Assembly: GCF_000317515.1 (NCBI RefSeq)
Contig: NC_019738.1
Coordinates: 4,986,001-5,050,000 of the forward strand
Length of the DNA stretch: 64,000 nt
Direction of reading: 5' to 3'
From: Allocoleopsis franciscana PCC 7113
Lineage (GTDB): Bacteria; Cyanobacteriota; Cyanobacteriia; Cyanobacteriales; Coleofasciculaceae
The position numbers and the translations under genes are program-made. The notes under the pieces are model-generated. The model was not told where the DNA came from. It saw only the letters and a program-made list of their open reading frames with translations, and searched no databases. Shown here in pieces: positions 28,730 through 42,597 of the stretch (positions within the stretch are counted from its first letter, which is position 1; every line of letters starts with the position of its first letter).

Positions 28730-28858
28730 TCCTGCCGAATTAGGTGTAACTTAGGTGACTGAGGGGGTGTGAATAAGTATATTTTCCTAGTGACTTTCCT
28801 CAGTCCCCTTGACCACGAACAAACGACGAATAGAATAAGGGATTCTAGGGTACAGACC

Positions 28859-29473
28859 ATGATGAAAGCAGCAGACATCATGACCAAGGATGTAGTCACC
28901 ATTCGCGGTGCGGCGACAGTGGCTCAGGCCGTAGATTTGATGAAACAGAAGGGCTTACGAGCCTTAATTGTGGAGCGCCGCCACGACCAAGATGCCTACG
29001 GGATTGTGACCGAGACCGATATTGTATACAAAGTGGCAGCGTTTGGCAAAGACCCCAAGACGGTACGGGTTTACGAAATTATGACAAAGCCCTGCATTGT
29101 GGTCAATCCTGACCTCGGTGTGGAATATGTAGCGCGATTGTTTGCCAATAGCGGCATCCGACGCGCTCCGGTGATCACAGATAAATTGCTCGGCATTATT
29201 TCAGTAACCGATATTCTCACCAAGAGTGACTTCGTGGAGCAACCCAAAGAAGTTGTCTTTGCGGACAAAATCCAGGAGGCCATTGAGAACGCACGCACCA
29301 TTTGTACCCAGAAAGGGGCGGCTTCTCCGGAATGTGCGGCGGCTTGGGATGCTGTGGAGGAGATGCAAGCGGAAGCGGCACATCAACGAGCCAAGAAGGT
29401 TGACAAAACAGCCTTTGATGAGTATTGCGAGGAATATCCAGAGGCACTAGAAGCTCGAATTTATGACAATTAA
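28859..29473 (+). CDS. CBS-CP12 fusion protein
   Basis: About 204 residues from ATG 28859 (or 28862); the GTG at 28769 would add 30 residues without family support. Residues 1-125 are a CBS pair (AADIMTKDVVTI, VYEIMTKPCIVV), a module that usually binds AMP/ATP. Residues about 140-204 are a CP12-like tail with the AWDAVEEMQAEAAHQ core. CP12 redox-tethers GAPDH and phosphoribulokinase of the Calvin cycle. The N-terminal CP12 cysteine pair is present (Cys149, Cys159); of the C-terminal pair only Cys190 remains, and the partner position is Ala199 (EAR instead of ECR). The family suggests an adenylate-sensing regulator of carbon fixation, likely at phosphoribulokinase. Confidence 0.9.
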   Translation: MMKAADIMTKDVVTIRGAATVAQAVDLMKQKGLRALIVERRHDQDAYGIVTETDIVYKVAAFGKDPKTVRVYEIMTKPCIVVNPDLGVEYVARLFANSGIRRAPVITDKLLGIISVTDILTKSDFVEQPKEVVFADKIQEAIENARTICTQKGAASPECAAAWDAVEEMQAEAAHQRAKKVDKTAFDEYCEEYPEALEARIYDN

Positions 29474-30160: not shown

Positions 30161-33100
30161 TTAAAACGGTAGCTCTATCACAAACTCTGTTCCTTGTCCA
30201 TCAGGTGAGTGATAGTATAATTCACCTTTATGTTTCTTCACCACAATAGAGTGGGAAATCGACAACCCTAAACCCGTACCCTTGCCAATGGGTTTGGTGG
30301 TAAAAAACGGGTCAAACACACGCAGATTAACATTTTCTGGAATACCAATACCATTGTCGGCGATGCGAATCACAACCTTGTCAGTGAAGGGAATAGGAAA
30401 TTGACCCTTAGCAATTGAGCAGGGGGAGTGGGTTATTGGGCATTGACCCTGAGAATTTTGACTGTTTCCTGTTCTTTTCCGGCTGCTCAAAACTTGCGTA
30501 CAAATCCGAATTTGAGGAGTTAGAGAAGCATCTTTTTTCATCCTGCATTCAAGGGCATCAATGGCATTACTCAAAATATTGATAAATACCTGATTTAGCT
30601 CACTAGGGTAGCAATCCACCAAGGGAAGGCTACCGAATTCTTTAATCACCTGAATTGCCGCTCGACTGGACTGTTCTCTCAAACGGTTTTGCAAAATCAT
30701 CAAGGTATTATCAATTCCCTGATGAAGGTCAACTTTCTTGCGTTCAGCTTCATCAAGACGCGAGAAGTTCCGCAGAGATAGGACAATTTCTTGAATGCGC
30801 GAGGCTCCTTTTTGCATGGAACGCAGCAATTTGGGAAAATCTTCTTTAATAAAATCTAGGTCGATCGCGACAATCTCGTTTTCGATTTCGGCAGGAGGCG
30901 TCGGATAGTACTTTTGGTAAAGAGAAATCAGATTCAGTAGGTCATCGGTATATCCCAGCGCTGGGGCAACATTGCAGGAGATAAAGCTGGTGGGATTGTT
31001 AATTTCATGGGCAACACCCGCCACGAGTTGACCCAAACTCGCCATTTTTTCAGTTTGCACTAACTGAGTTTGGGCGTTTTTCAGGTCGTGTAGTGCGATT
31101 AACAGTTGCTTGGCTCGTTTCCGTTCTCGCGCTTCACTTCGCCGCAGGTTCTCTTCAACTCGCTTGCGTTCCAGGAGTTCTGTTTGCGCTTGTTCAAAGA
31201 GGGTGGATTGCTGGATAGCGATCGCTAATTGTACAGAAAGCTGGCTGAGACACTCGATCTCAAAGGAGTCCCACGCCCTGGAATCCCTACAGTGATGAGC
31301 AATCAGCAGTCCCCATAATGTTTCTCCTTGCAATAGAGGAACCACCAGGTTGGCTTTAACCTCTAACTGGCTGAGGAGATCGATATGGCACTGCCTCAAA
31401 TCCGCCTGATGAATATTATCGACCGCTCGAATCCGACCTTGTTGATATTGGGAGGTATAGTTTTGGGCAAAGCAGTTGTCTTGAATGTCCAGTCCGAACA
31501 GGGGTGTCCAATCCTCGCCAACGGACTCAACCGCTATCACCCCACTCCAATCCGGGTAAAAGCGGTAAATGACTGTTCGATCTGTTTGGAGAAACTGCCG
31601 CACTTCCTCCACTGCCGTTGTTAGGACTTCTTTTAGGTTCAGGGTGCGGCGAATACGCGATCGCATCGCCCCTACCAAGTGCTCTCGCAACACTTGCTGC
31701 CTTAATGCTGCTTCTGCCTGTTTGAGTTCGGTGATGTCCCGGTGAACGCCGATATAATGAGTTAAAATTCCAGCGCTATTTCGCACTGGGGAGATGGAGA
31801 ATTCATTCCAAAACAAAGAGCCGTCTTTTCGGTAGTTCCGTAACACAACCCGACATTCTCGCTCCTGTTGCAGCGCTGTTCGCAGTTCAGTCAGAGCCGG
31901 TTGCTCTCGATCCGTTCCTTGCAAGAAGCGACAATTTTGACCCATCACTTCTTCTACCGAGTAACCCGTAATTCGCTCAAATCCAGGATTGGCGTAAACT
32001 AACGGATGATTAGAGTCAGTGGCATCCGTAATCACAATGCCGTTACTGGATGCTGCGATCGCTCGTTCTAGGAGGCGTAGACGATCAATGGTCTGTTGGC
32101 GCTCAGTAATATCATCTGCAATTCCTAATACATATTGGGGTCTACCAACTTCATCAAAGATCGGAATTTTTTTGACATGAAAGATGCGTTGCCCCCGATG
32201 GGTAGGAATCGGTTCTGCGGGGTTATCAATCAGCTTGCCTATTAAAAAGGCTTCTTGATCTTGAGCCTTCGAGAAATTCGCATGATCGGCTGAAAATAAA
32301 TCAGAATCAGTCTTGCCAATCACCTCATTTGCACTGTAGCCAATCAGTTCAGTCAGGGTTTTGTTCCAGAAGACAAATTGCAATTTCTGGGCCTCTTTGG
32401 CAAACACGCCCACAGGCAAATTATCCAGCAAAGAGTTGAGGAATTGTTGAGTGCGATGAAGTTCTGCTTCAGCCTGTTTGCGCTCGGTGATATCAAAAAT
32501 AACACCATCTAGACAGAGTAGTTCTCCTTTAGTTTTAAAGATACCATGCCCCTTTTCATAAACCCATCGAATGCTGCCATTCTTATGAATAATTCGGTAT
32601 TCCAAAGAGAAGGGCTGTTTAGTTCCTAAAGCATCCCGAATTGCACAATTGACCGATTCAACATCTTCCGGATAAATAATACTGGTTAAGTTTCGCTTGT
32701 AATTAGCAATAAAATCTGAAGCCGGATAACCGCTAATCCGCTCAATTTCTTGGCTAAAAAATTCTATCGTCCAATCAGCATCACACTTGCCGCGATAGAC
32801 AGCACCAGGAATATTGCTGACTAAGGTACGATATCGTGCTTCACTGCTTTGTAAGGCTGCTTCTGAATGCTTACGCTCTGTGATATCACGGGCAACGGCA
32901 TAGATTAAACCTTCTTGAAAAAAAGACACCATTGTCCAGGAAAACCACCGATAAGAACCATCTTTACCGATAAAACGGTTTTCAAATTTCAGCGAGGGAA
33001 TGCTACCATTTTTGAGTTTTTGCACCGCTCGTCGGCTAGCTTTTCGATCGTCTGGATGAACCAATTTAAGAATAGGTTGGTTGAGCAGCTCGGAGATTGT

Positions 33101-33775
33101 ATAGCCAAGGGTGGTTTCCCAAACCGGATTCAATTGCTTGAAATAGCCATCAACACCCGCAATACAGAGTAAATCGAGGGAAAGGGTAAAAAAACGCTGT
33201 TCTTCTTGGCTGACGAATTCTTGTTGTGACGGTTGAGGTTCAGGTGGATCAATCACCTCTGGAAGATCGGAAATTACACACTGATATTCCTCTTGATTTC
33301 TCAACAAAGCTTCTCGCATTTTTTGATGGGCAACAGAGGCGATCGCGTCCCGTCTGGCGATTGCATAACGTAAGGAATTCATCAAGGGAATATGGCTTAG
33401 TTTCCCTTTCTTCCAAAAATCTTGTACTCCGGCACTAAGGCATTGGAGAGCGAGCGTTTGATCATCGTCTTCTATGATCACAATAATGGCAGGACACGCC
33501 CCGTTTTTGGGAGAGCTAATGTATTCGTGAACTCTAGCAAGGGGATGTAGATCATTACGTTCAGGAAGTGATAAATCGAATAAAACAACATCGAAATTCT
33601 CCTGACTCAACGCTTCTATCGTTTCAGTGATACTCTTAACATGGGTTAAGAGTATATTTTCTCCTTGAGCTTCTAGAAGTACCTCTTGAAGCCGTTGTGC
33701 CTCAGTTAGGTTGTCTTCAACCAGGAGAACTCTGAAAGCATCACGGTTGAGCGTTGGCTTCAGCGTTGATGTCAT
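30161..33775 (-). CDS. hybrid sensor histidine kinase: REC-PAS-PAS-PAS-LOV-GAF-HisKA-HATPase
   Basis: This 1204-residue soluble kinase starts with a receiver (Asp67 in VVLFDLSLPE). PAS domains lie at about 190-305, 312-435 and 440-560. The fourth PAS (about 570-690) has the LOV signature GQNCRFLQG with Cys615 and NYRKDGSLFWN, but the usual Gln of IGVQ is His (YIGVHRDIT). The GAF (about 697-860) has DNCF (Cys768) and, 28 residues on, CHIDLL (Cys796), the spacing of DXCF cyanobacteriochromes such as TePixJ. A HisKA with His923 (GVAHEINNP) and an HATPase with DNGIGIP and GKGTGLGLSIS complete it. It could sense blue light through flavin and another colour through a bilin; chromophore binding is inferred. 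No output regulator adjoins it. Confidence 0.92.
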   Translation of the reverse strand: MTSTLKPTLNRDAFRVLLVEDNLTEAQRLQEVLLEAQGENILLTHVKSITETIEALSQENFDVVLFDLSLPERNDLHPLARVHEYISSPKNGACPAIIVIIEDDDQTLALQCLSAGVQDFWKKGKLSHIPLMNSLRYAIARRDAIASVAHQKMREALLRNQEEYQCVISDLPEVIDPPEPQPSQQEFVSQEEQRFFTLSLDLLCIAGVDGYFKQLNPVWETTLGYTISELLNQPILKLVHPDDRKASRRAVQKLKNGSIPSLKFENRFIGKDGSYRWFSWTMVSFFQEGLIYAVARDITERKHSEAALQSSEARYRTLVSNIPGAVYRGKCDADWTIEFFSQEIERISGYPASDFIANYKRNLTSIIYPEDVESVNCAIRDALGTKQPFSLEYRIIHKNGSIRWVYEKGHGIFKTKGELLCLDGVIFDITERKQAEAELHRTQQFLNSLLDNLPVGVFAKEAQKLQFVFWNKTLTELIGYSANEVIGKTDSDLFSADHANFSKAQDQEAFLIGKLIDNPAEPIPTHRGQRIFHVKKIPIFDEVGRPQYVLGIADDITERQQTIDRLRLLERAIAASSNGIVITDATDSNHPLVYANPGFERITGYSVEEVMGQNCRFLQGTDREQPALTELRTALQQERECRVVLRNYRKDGSLFWNEFSISPVRNSAGILTHYIGVHRDITELKQAEAALRQQVLREHLVGAMRSRIRRTLNLKEVLTTAVEEVRQFLQTDRTVIYRFYPDWSGVIAVESVGEDWTPLFGLDIQDNCFAQNYTSQYQQGRIRAVDNIHQADLRQCHIDLLSQLEVKANLVVPLLQGETLWGLLIAHHCRDSRAWDSFEIECLSQLSVQLAIAIQQSTLFEQAQTELLERKRVEENLRRSEARERKRAKQLLIALHDLKNAQTQLVQTEKMASLGQLVAGVAHEINNPTSFISCNVAPALGYTDDLLNLISLYQKYYPTPPAEIENEIVAIDLDFIKEDFPKLLRSMQKGASRIQEIVLSLRNFSRLDEAERKKVDLHQGIDNTLMILQNRLREQSSRAAIQVIKEFGSLPLVDCYPSELNQVFINILSNAIDALECRMKKDASLTPQIRICTQVLSSRKRTGNSQNSQGQCPITHSPCSIAKGQFPIPFTDKVVIRIADNGIGIPENVNLRVFDPFFTTKPIGKGTGLGLSISHSIVVKKHKGELYYHSPDGQGTEFVIELPF

Positions 33776-34486
33776 AATGGCTAATTCTCAGAATTAGGTA
33801 GATAGCAAGTACACGATTAAACTTAACTGGCTAAAAAATTTGGAGGAAGTCTTACTGCTAGAATCTCCGTGCACCCCTACAACGTAATAATTTTTACGCT
33901 TCAAAGCTCAATCTATAAGGCTGAATTGACTACTCTTCGGGAAGTTGTGTCAGTCAATCAGCACCTCAAGTTTATTATTTCCCTAAACTTAAATCGCCTT
34001 CTTATCGGTTGGCTGTCTCCATAGCTTCATTCGTTCCCTTGATGGGTTTTAAATAAAGCAACTGTCAGCTATATAAAGCATTTTAAATTTCGACTCTCCT
34101 AGAAAGAGCCAGTTACTGTAGACGACCCCTAACAAACGTCTGTTCAAATCTTATCCTCTGTTTATACTCTTGTACTAGACCCCCTCAAAAAATAAGTGTT
34201 TCGGTGCTGAGTATTCAGGAACACAATCGAGGGAGGAGGGATAGGAGATCTGATCCTGTAATATACTGCTTTAGATATAAGTTATTAAGCGAATAGAATG
34301 CTAATAATAACTCGATTTTGGGGTTGTTAACTTTCCGATGACTGTCGGACAAGGTTGGAAAAAGTTAGCTCAATTTAGGATGACTATTCTGGGATTATGA
34401 TGGATTCTCAGTTAAATTGAGCCAATATACCGGCTGTAGGGACACACAGATGTACGTCCCTACAAGGCCAAACGCAGGACTAAAAA
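33776..34486. other. 711-bp spacer upstream of the photoreceptor-like kinase
   Basis: No gene is seen. It should carry the kinase promoter. The only distinct structure is the palindromic repeat at 34435-34464. Confidence 0.4.
34435..34464. repeat. GTAGGGAC palindromic repeat
   Basis: TGTAGGGAC (34435-34443) and GTCCCTACA (34456-34464) form a nine-bp stem at the 3' side of the CobW gene. The TGTAGGG termini resemble those at 6265 and 37422. Confidence 0.65.
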
Positions 34487-39798: not shown

Positions 39799-42597
39799 TC
39801 AGCGAGAGCCAATCAGCCAATAAGTCGTCATCTCCCCCTTACCCTTAACGGGAATAGTTCCCCGCTTTTCCAATAAATACTGATTCTGCAAACGTTCATA
39901 GGTAGTAGCTGTAACTTGAATTCGTCCCGGCATTCCTTGAGACTCCATCCGGGACGCCACATTAACGGTATCACCCCATAAATCGTAGATAAACTTTTTC
40001 ATGCCAATCACACCGGCTACAACCGGCCCCGTATTAATGCCAATCCGAATCTGAAACGGTTCCCCTTTGTCGGCTTCAAATTGGGTAATTGCTGTTTGCA
40101 TATCCAGTGCCATTTGGGCGGTACGCGAAGCGATATCCCCATTAGTCATGGGTTCGGCATCATCCTCTCTGGGCATCGGTAAACCTCCCGCAACCATATA
40201 GGCATCCCCAATCGTTTTTATTTTCTCCAAACCATGTTTTTCCACCAATTCATCAAAGGTAGAAAAAATCTCATTCAGCAAGTTGACGAGTGCTTGTGGC
40301 GAGATGCGGGCAGAAAGAGGGGTAAAACCGACGATATCTGCAAACATAATTGTTACATCATCGAATTGCTCGGCAATCAACATAGCACCATTGGACTTAG
40401 CAAAACCATTTTCCCGAAAGTTCCAGAGGTTCTGTTTTAATTGTTCCGCGATCGCTTTGGGTAAAATATTAAGTAATAATCGCTCTGACTTTTCTTGTTC
40501 TACCCGCAACGCCTCCTCTGCCTTTTTGCGTAAGGTGATATCTTCCACAACACCCAGGATGCCAATTACCTTTCCTGTTGAGTCCTGCAAGGGAATTTTA
40601 CTGATATCGAGCCAAACCGTTTGCCCATCGGCTGAGGGTCTTGGCTTGGATGCCACAATATGTAATTCTGGTGTCATCGTCTCCATAATACGACGGTCTT
40701 GAACACGGAATAAGTCTGCTATTTCCCGGTTCGGCAGCACATCGTAATCTGTTTTACCCACTACAGCTTCCGGATGATTAATCTCAGCCGCTTTTGCCCA
40801 GTTTTGATTACAACCGAGGAAAACTAAGTTGGCATCTTTCCAAAAGACTTGCAACGGAATATTATCCAAAATCAAGCGCAGATACTCTTTTTGTTCTCTC
40901 AACGCTTTTTCCATCAGCTTGCGTTCGGTGATGTCATTCCCAATACAAAGCAGGCAAACTTCTCCAGCCAACTCAATTTTTTCAGCGGAGAGTAGCACCG
41001 TTCTCACTTCTCCCAACTTGGTGCGAAAACGGACTTCCCAATCCCGCACAGCTCCCTCAACATCTAGCCACTGAATAATCCAGGTGTACTCTTCTGGATT
41101 CGCCCATATCTGAAGCTCATGAGTGGTATGACCAATTACCTCTTGAAGCTCATATCCACACAGGTGTAAGAAGCTTTCATTGACCTCGATATAGCATCCA
41201 TCAAGCAGGGTAGTAATGGCAATGGGGTGAGGAGAACAACGAAAAGATAATGCGAACTTTTCTTCAGATAAACGGAGCGCGGCTGTCCGTTCTTCAACAC
41301 GACTTTCTAACTGTTCATTCGTCTGCTTTAAGACTTTATAAGACTCGCGCAATTGAACAACCATTTGATTGAAAAAAGTCGCCAATACCCTCAGTTCGCC
41401 AACACCCTGTACTTCAACATATTGGTCTAATTCTCCTCTAGCGATCGCCCTAGAGGCTGCACTTAGCCGAATAATAGGCTGAGTAATCCAGCGAGAGGTA
41501 ATCAAGCCCAGCAAGAGTGCCAACATTAACGCCAAAAAACACAGCAGAATAGTCATGCGGGTGTTGGCATGGATTTGTTCCATAAAGTCTGATTCCGGAA
41601 CAACAACCACCACTATCCAGTCCAGTCCGCCAACGTCTCGGAATGGGATCACTTGGAGAAATTGTCGCTTCCCTTCTAGCTGAAACTCTAGTGACTGACT
41701 ACTATTAATTTGGGTAAAGTTGCTAAAGATAGCGGCTAAATATTTGGCGGTAGAACGAGTTAAAGGATTGGTGCTATTTACCCCTAGTAACCGTTCAGGT
41801 TTTTGGGTATTTTGGGGGAGATAAAAAGGTTCTTCCGAGGTTGAAGTGGCAATTAACCGTCCATTGCGCTCCATAATAAAAGTCTGTCCAGTCTGGCCAA
41901 TCTTCAAGCCCCTGAGGAACTGACTAATTTGTGATAAGCTGAGACTAGAACTCGTAACGGCTAATAACTTACCCCTTGGATCGTAAACAGGTTGCGTCGC
42001 CCAAACTCTAAGATACGCCGGATTAGAACTTAAGGAAATCTCTGTCCAAGTTGGTTTACCCGCCTTGAGTGCGGCCTGATATCTGGGTTGTTCCCAATAT
42101 TGATTATTCGGGTTAGTTCGCAGAATTTTAGTGCGGTTTCCTTGGTGATCCGTCGCCCAACTTTGGTGACGTCCTGTGGTTTTATCGGTGATACCGATGG
42201 TAATTGAGCCATCCTCTCGTCGAATAATACCAATGTATCCTTTGTTGGGAGTAGAAATATTAATAGAAGTCAAGGTATCAAATTTATGGATTTGTCTCCA
42301 CAAGAAGCGATCCAGTGTAGGAAGATTATCTAAATTTTCTAATCCCGAATCGATAGCATCTGCATGGAATTGATTAACCTGATGGGGAATTTCTAAGTAA
42401 GTTTGCAGGCGAAGTTGGATGCGATCGCCGATTTCACGACTTAATTCACTGGCTACTTCATTGACGGCTTGCTGTCCGTTACGGATAGAGAGGTAGCTGA
42501 TGACTCCGACAGCAATAAAGATTTGCAACACAAAAGGCAGCACTAAGAGGAGGCGCAACTGCATGTTTTTTGTATTTTTTAAAAGCCGTTTGAGCAT
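39799..42597 (-). CDS. membrane adenylate cyclase with dCache, HAMP and PAS domains
   Basis: This 932-residue protein has TM1 at about 15-37, an extracytoplasmic sensor (dCache-like, about 40-340), TM2 (about 345-368), HAMP (about 370-425), two PAS domains (about 450-560 and 575-690) and a class III nucleotide cyclase (about 735-925). Metal Asp lies in IMFADIVGF and the second acidic site in KTIGDAYMVAGGLP. The base-selecting Lys (EKIKTIGD) and Asp (IYDLWGDTVN) point to ATP, so the product should be cAMP. The external ligand is unknown. Full length with no truncation. Confidence 0.93.
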   Translation of the reverse strand: MLKRLLKNTKNMQLRLLLVLPFVLQIFIAVGVISYLSIRNGQQAVNEVASELSREIGDRIQLRLQTYLEIPHQVNQFHADAIDSGLENLDNLPTLDRFLWRQIHKFDTLTSINISTPNKGYIGIIRREDGSITIGITDKTTGRHQSWATDHQGNRTKILRTNPNNQYWEQPRYQAALKAGKPTWTEISLSSNPAYLRVWATQPVYDPRGKLLAVTSSSLSLSQISQFLRGLKIGQTGQTFIMERNGRLIATSTSEEPFYLPQNTQKPERLLGVNSTNPLTRSTAKYLAAIFSNFTQINSSQSLEFQLEGKRQFLQVIPFRDVGGLDWIVVVVVPESDFMEQIHANTRMTILLCFLALMLALLLGLITSRWITQPIIRLSAASRAIARGELDQYVEVQGVGELRVLATFFNQMVVQLRESYKVLKQTNEQLESRVEERTAALRLSEEKFALSFRCSPHPIAITTLLDGCYIEVNESFLHLCGYELQEVIGHTTHELQIWANPEEYTWIIQWLDVEGAVRDWEVRFRTKLGEVRTVLLSAEKIELAGEVCLLCIGNDITERKLMEKALREQKEYLRLILDNIPLQVFWKDANLVFLGCNQNWAKAAEINHPEAVVGKTDYDVLPNREIADLFRVQDRRIMETMTPELHIVASKPRPSADGQTVWLDISKIPLQDSTGKVIGILGVVEDITLRKKAEEALRVEQEKSERLLLNILPKAIAEQLKQNLWNFRENGFAKSNGAMLIAEQFDDVTIMFADIVGFTPLSARISPQALVNLLNEIFSTFDELVEKHGLEKIKTIGDAYMVAGGLPMPREDDAEPMTNGDIASRTAQMALDMQTAITQFEADKGEPFQIRIGINTGPVVAGVIGMKKFIYDLWGDTVNVASRMESQGMPGRIQVTATTYERLQNQYLLEKRGTIPVKGKGEMTTYWLIGSR

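Follow-up and report, generated by a model that had tools for sequence, protein, structure and literature searches.

In PPHK (phosphorylation-responsive photosensitive histidine kinase of Leptolyngbya JSC-1; PDB 6oap/6oaq/6ob8), a receiver, a cyanobacteriochrome (CBCR) GAF domain and a histidine kinase are combined in one protein, an architecture shared by the protein described here, whose GAF domain has its best sequence and fold match in PPHK. We know of no LOV domain in PPHK, whereas in our protein three PAS domains and a LOV domain lie between the receiver and the GAF domain; PPHK also lacks the DXCF cysteine (DQYF there, DNCF here). It photoconverts between Pg and Pr (PMC11480761). The DXCF CBCRs, including TePixJ, have a D-x-C-F second cysteine 28 residues before a canonical Cys-His, as does our protein. 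In the LOV histidine kinases YF1, SB2F1 and Brucella LOV-HK a helical linker likewise runs from the LOV domain toward the kinase, but our protein has a CBCR GAF domain in between. As far as it is described where it is cited in PMC6798134, YHF is an engineered LOV and heme-PAS kinase that also places two chromophore sensors in series before one kinase; it is engineered and uses flavin and heme, while our protein is natural, with flavin-type and bilin-type sensors. The protein is a variation on known kinds of sensor, not a new kind.

The window, the whole 64,000-nucleotide stretch of DNA that was analysed, comes from the GAF-rich 7.97-Mb genome of Allocoleopsis franciscana PCC 7113 (nine contigs, 156 GAF domain matches). 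It contains an intact open reading frame with an ATG start for this kinase (Table 1), and a syntenic locus is found in a sister species at 91% DNA identity. The flanking genes are housekeeping or metabolic (D-Tyr-tRNA deacylase, CBS-CP12, CobW and CysRS), and an adjacent cognate response regulator was therefore rejected. The CBS-CP12 gene encodes a fusion protein (28769-29473). The ∼0.7 kb between the kinase and CobW genes (33776-34486), which is without an open reading frame of 80 aa or more, is a possible regulatory region, and a Cache-HAMP-PAS-PAS-adenylate cyclase is encoded ∼6 kb from the kinase gene (39799-42597). Searches of plasmids with tblastn returned partial or distant matches only, none at 60% identity or above.

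Table 1. Features of the kinase gene (window positions; the gene coordinates include the stop codon)
Feature	Position	Strand	Remarks
Histidine kinase, REC-PAS-PAS-PAS-LOV-GAF-HK	30161..33775	-	1204 aa; Pfam and NCBIfam
Receiver domain, residues 16-123	33407..33730	-	Pfam; LFDLSLP is the phospho-acceptor Asp region
PAS domain 1, residues ∼191-306	32858..33205	-	Boundaries approximate
PAS domain 2, residues ∼307-436	32468..32857	-	PAS_3 match 339-426
PAS domain 3, residues ∼437-560	32096..32467	-	PAS_4 match 450-560
LOV domain, residues 561-690	31706..32095	-	PAS_9 match 578-683 and PDB matches
LOV adduct cysteine C615	31931..31933	-	GQNCRFLQG
H678, at LOV active-site Gln position (YtvA Q123, AsLOV2 Q513)	31742..31744	-	Codon CAC
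DXCF CBCR GAF domain, residues 691-860	31196..31705	-	Pfam GAF 713-854, E 4e-23
Second cysteine C768 of DNCF	31472..31474	-	
Canonical bilin-attaching cysteine C796 (then H797)	31388..31390	-	CHIDLL
Long GAF-to-kinase signalling helix, residues 837-904	31064..31267	-	Heptad-spaced in relatives
Histidine kinase module, residues 906-1204, phospho-acceptor H923	30164..31060	-	

A receiver and, besides the LOV domain, three PAS domains were matched in this protein, as the initial annotation had stated. The motifs also lie where it had reported them: C615 in GQNCRFLQG, NYRKDGSLFWN at N647 to N657, C768 in DNCF and C796 in CHIDLL, with 28 residues between the two GAF cysteines. Both hallmarks of a HisKA-type kinase are present, namely a phospho-acceptor histidine (H923, in AHEINNP) and an ATPase domain (Pfam HATPase_c, residues 1058-1204, E 7e-20), and the HisKA match itself falls slightly below the Pfam cut-off (25.5 vs 26.9 bits). 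The receiver match is above its cut-off (32.8 vs 30.2 bits); by eye, its Asp and Lys seem present and the usual Thr/Ser is replaced by Ile. Chance occurrence of the LOV and GAF motifs can be dismissed, because the 131-aa LOV segment and the GAF domain are 96% and 94% identical, respectively, to those of the syntenic sister-species orthologue, and because no variation is seen among 28 aligned GAF-linker segments in the Asp, Cys and Phe of D766-N-C768-F769, in the canonical cysteine (C796) or in the 28-residue spacing.

The GAF domain is a genuine CBCR as judged from its sequence, its phylogeny and its fold. Its closest solved match is PPHK 6oap (phmmer E 5e-50; Foldseek 1.5e-20, 44% identity over 181 columns), followed by miRFP670nano (derived from NpR3784), AnPixJ and TePixJ. 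When 62 GAF domains were placed in a maximum-likelihood tree, in which the CBCR references are PDB chains only, it fell inside the CBCR reference clade (support 100/96) rather than with non-bilin GAF domains. PDB 6oza is among the CBCR reference rows of the trees, and Anacy_2551g3 has been assigned to PDB 6UV8 (PMC11480761). Within the clade, the domain forms a small cluster with uncharacterised DXCF GAF domains (90/90). Two cysteine-less GAF domains of the same genome (L144 and L145) were placed far outside in a wider quick tree. The description as a DXCF CBCR such as TePixJ held for the cysteines and their spacing but not for the kinship: membership of a TePixJ clade, i.e. common ancestry excluding the other CBCR GAF domains compared, was rejected (AU p = 2.5e-5), and the output here is a kinase instead of the TePixJ-type methyl-accepting one. 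Since the domain lies outside the TePixJ clade and its nearest solved matches are PPHK and miRFP670nano, its colour pair is not readable from TePixJ. Three ferredoxin-bilin-reductase (Fe_bilin_red) genes are found in the genome, so bilins should be available. We judge the bilin arm of the protein very likely to be real.

Could a signal from the GAF domain reach the kinase? Only four distances (81, 88, 95 or 102 residues) were observed between the GAF core and the phospho-acceptor histidine, and they are equal modulo 7 in 41 of 41 distinct proteins, which are related and hence not independent counts. Such heptad periodicity is the signature of coiled-coil linkers in photoreceptor kinases (PMC6798134). 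These data support the GAF domain being wired to the kinase via a heptad-spaced linker. In an AlphaFold model (monomer, 28 rows, mean pLDDT 84), one helix (682-710) runs from the LOV domain into the GAF domain and another (837-904) from the GAF domain toward the kinase. The LOV and GAF cysteines are exactly 181 residues apart in the window protein and in L112 and L114, in all of which the two domains adjoin.

LOV domains read out flavin protonation through a glutamine located where their last strand ends. The LOV domain of the window protein, which finds its best PDB matches among short LOV proteins of bacteria (7r5n, E 1.6e-40), has the complete GxNC(R/K)FLQ motif including the adduct cysteine (G612, N614, C615, R616, F617, L618 and Q619) and both flavin-contacting asparagines (N647 and N657), i.e. 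all nine LOV motif residues are intact. The active-site glutamine (the YtvA Q123 position), however, is replaced by H678, both here and in the sister-species orthologue L002, a replacement overlooked in the initial annotation. A sequencing error was rejected, as the codon is CAC in both species. Among the 65 distinct Cys-bearing LOV domains taken from all loci fetched, 62 have Gln, two have His (the window protein and its sister orthologue) and one has Leu; the last belongs to a protein of the LOV-GAF-HK family (L184; G010:C68:8500-13500). Between the two species, the LOV domain is the most conserved domain (dN/dS 0.058, compared with 0.117 for the GAF domain and 0.167 for the whole gene; Fisher p 0.006-0.02 depending on rounding in a post hoc test). 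This strong constraint indicates that the LOV domain is used for something.

The consequences of losing this glutamine have been studied by Dietler et al. (2022), who tried every residue at this position of the kinase YF1: signalling survived in most variants, including that with Leu, and was lost with His, Trp, Tyr, Pro or Arg (PMC9098866). YF1 Q123H bound flavin, did not form the adduct and no longer responded to light, in agreement with earlier AsLOV2 data, and a Gln-to-His change likewise removed the light response of NmPAL (PMC9098866). The same study found ∼350 natural LOV domains without the glutamine, some with His, and argued that they are likely functional receptors (PMC9098866). Our LOV domain resembles Gln-less variants such as YF1 Q123H (PMC9098866) in combining a full LOV motif with His for Gln, but it is natural, strongly conserved across two species and placed directly before a CBCR. 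The proposal in the initial annotation that the protein could read blue light through flavin is therefore doubtful in view of the YF1 result, a doubt that the natural His-bearing domains lessen. In this protein the flavin arm probably does not work as a standard switch for blue light, although compensating changes could let this LOV domain cycle.

Computation shows the order of the domains, the cysteines, the CBCR ancestry, the replacement of Gln by His, the selection on the LOV domain and the linker periodicity; the chromophore, colours, LOV silence and signal direction are inferred parts of the following possible mechanism. C796 would hold a phycocyanobilin-derived chromophore; light would flip its 15,16 double bond, and C768 would attach to or leave bilin C10. 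The dark state would most likely be blue-absorbing and the photoproduct green-to-orange. Bending or rotation of the long helix 837-904, which would extend into the kinase dimer in the form of a heptad coiled coil, would then alter autophosphorylation of H923. Flavin is probably bound by the LOV domain, which a continuous helix connects to the GAF domain; with His for Gln, the LOV domain would most likely lack a normal adduct photocycle and would instead serve as a brace, either fixed or flavin/redox-sensitive, that tunes the GAF domain and the kinase. The N-terminal receiver and the three PAS domains may supply non-light input. We consider it somewhat more probable than the opposite that the protein is a sensor histidine kinase without a predicted neighbour partner whose working light input is the DXCF CBCR, with the LOV domain perhaps silenced or repurposed.

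That both sensors are photoactive, as the initial annotation proposed, with a (perhaps altered) LOV adduct forming despite H678 alongside GAF photoconversion, so that a single kinase would combine flavin-sensed blue light with a bilin colour pair, appears rather unlikely to us, yet much is consistent with it. The adduct motif is complete with both asparagines, the LOV domain has the lowest dN/dS of all domains, the 181-aa LOV-GAF spacing is fixed, natural His-bearing LOV domains exist and the glutamine is often dispensable (PMC9098866), and 18 related LOV-CBCR proteins keep it. Moreover, use of the adduct cysteine would account more readily for the strong conservation of the LOV domain and of C615 within it. 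However, Gln-to-His is among the few YF1 substitutions that kill the response, the adduct not being formed. If the light signal comes from the CBCR only, the LOV domain might serve as a flavin redox or semiquinone sensor, or as a reporter of flavin loading. Retention of flavin by Gln-to-His variants, the purifying selection on the LOV domain and the existence of several LOV relatives that have kept the fold without the cysteine are compatible with such a role; C615 is nevertheless kept, although a sensor of redox state alone could dispense with it, and we regard such a role as improbable. Still less credible is a GAF domain that binds no bilin, with the DNCF/CH pair as a relic: many GAF domains of the same genome do lack these cysteines, and one relative (L014) has lost the second (DNFF), but the clear CBCR placement, the invariant cysteines and the low GAF dN/dS speak against it. 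We retain the CBCR as the favoured light input, and the window protein may be a two-colour receptor in appearance only.

A related GAF-kinase module occurs in 163 of 388 Cyanobacteriia genomes (E 1e-110), and a Cys-bearing LOV domain and a DXCF GAF domain are found together in at least 21 proteins from 17 cyanobacterial genomes and several families, most of them with at least one PAS or another GAF domain in between. The LOV domain of the window protein lies in a different LOV clade (support 98/97). A single origin for all LOV domains fused to these GAF domains was rejected (AU p 0.0012), so the LOV and CBCR combination arose at least twice. In four genomes of genus g189, 1931-aa long-frame proteins (L203-L206) have a LOV domain directly before the GAF domain; the LOV domain reads GNCR(I/L)LQ and the GAF domain has a CY-type cysteine without DXCF. 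Our search of the open-access literature, with subscription papers largely outside its scope, found no description of a LOV and CBCR protein.

The same genome encodes a 940-aa paralogue (L096; G000:C1:3349951-3352602) with a canonical, Gln-containing LOV domain, a PAS-like stretch, a DTCF/CH GAF domain and a kinase. Judged by its residues, with the full set for both sensors, this would be a better dual-photoreceptor candidate than the window gene. The idea of a dual LOV and CBCR kinase fits this paralogue and ∼17 other proteins better than it fits the window protein. In another relative, L100 (G342:C140), an intact DXCF GAF domain and kinase follow a LOV domain whose core residues have decayed (GNSDFLQ...H...D...H). 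Tentatively, and with less confidence than we attach to the CBCR as light input, we suggest that in one lineage of natural LOV-CBCR kinases the LOV domain, once a switch for blue light, has been turned by selection, through the Gln-to-His change, into a flavin module that is conserved, forms no adduct and tunes the neighbouring CBCR, a paralogue in the same cell keeping both photoreceptors working.

The Gln-to-His change means that the GxNCRFLQ motif by itself is insufficient to infer blue-light sensing, and a LOV domain carrying it is a natural test of the claimed dispensability of the glutamine in LOV signalling. Should the proteins of this family behave in the way their sequences indicate, these are natural single-chain kinases with flavin and bilin photoreceptors in series, and because some members have lost one input (the LOV glutamine in the window protein, LOV core residues in L100 and the second GAF cysteine in L014), the integration of two photochemistries would be testable across natural proteins.
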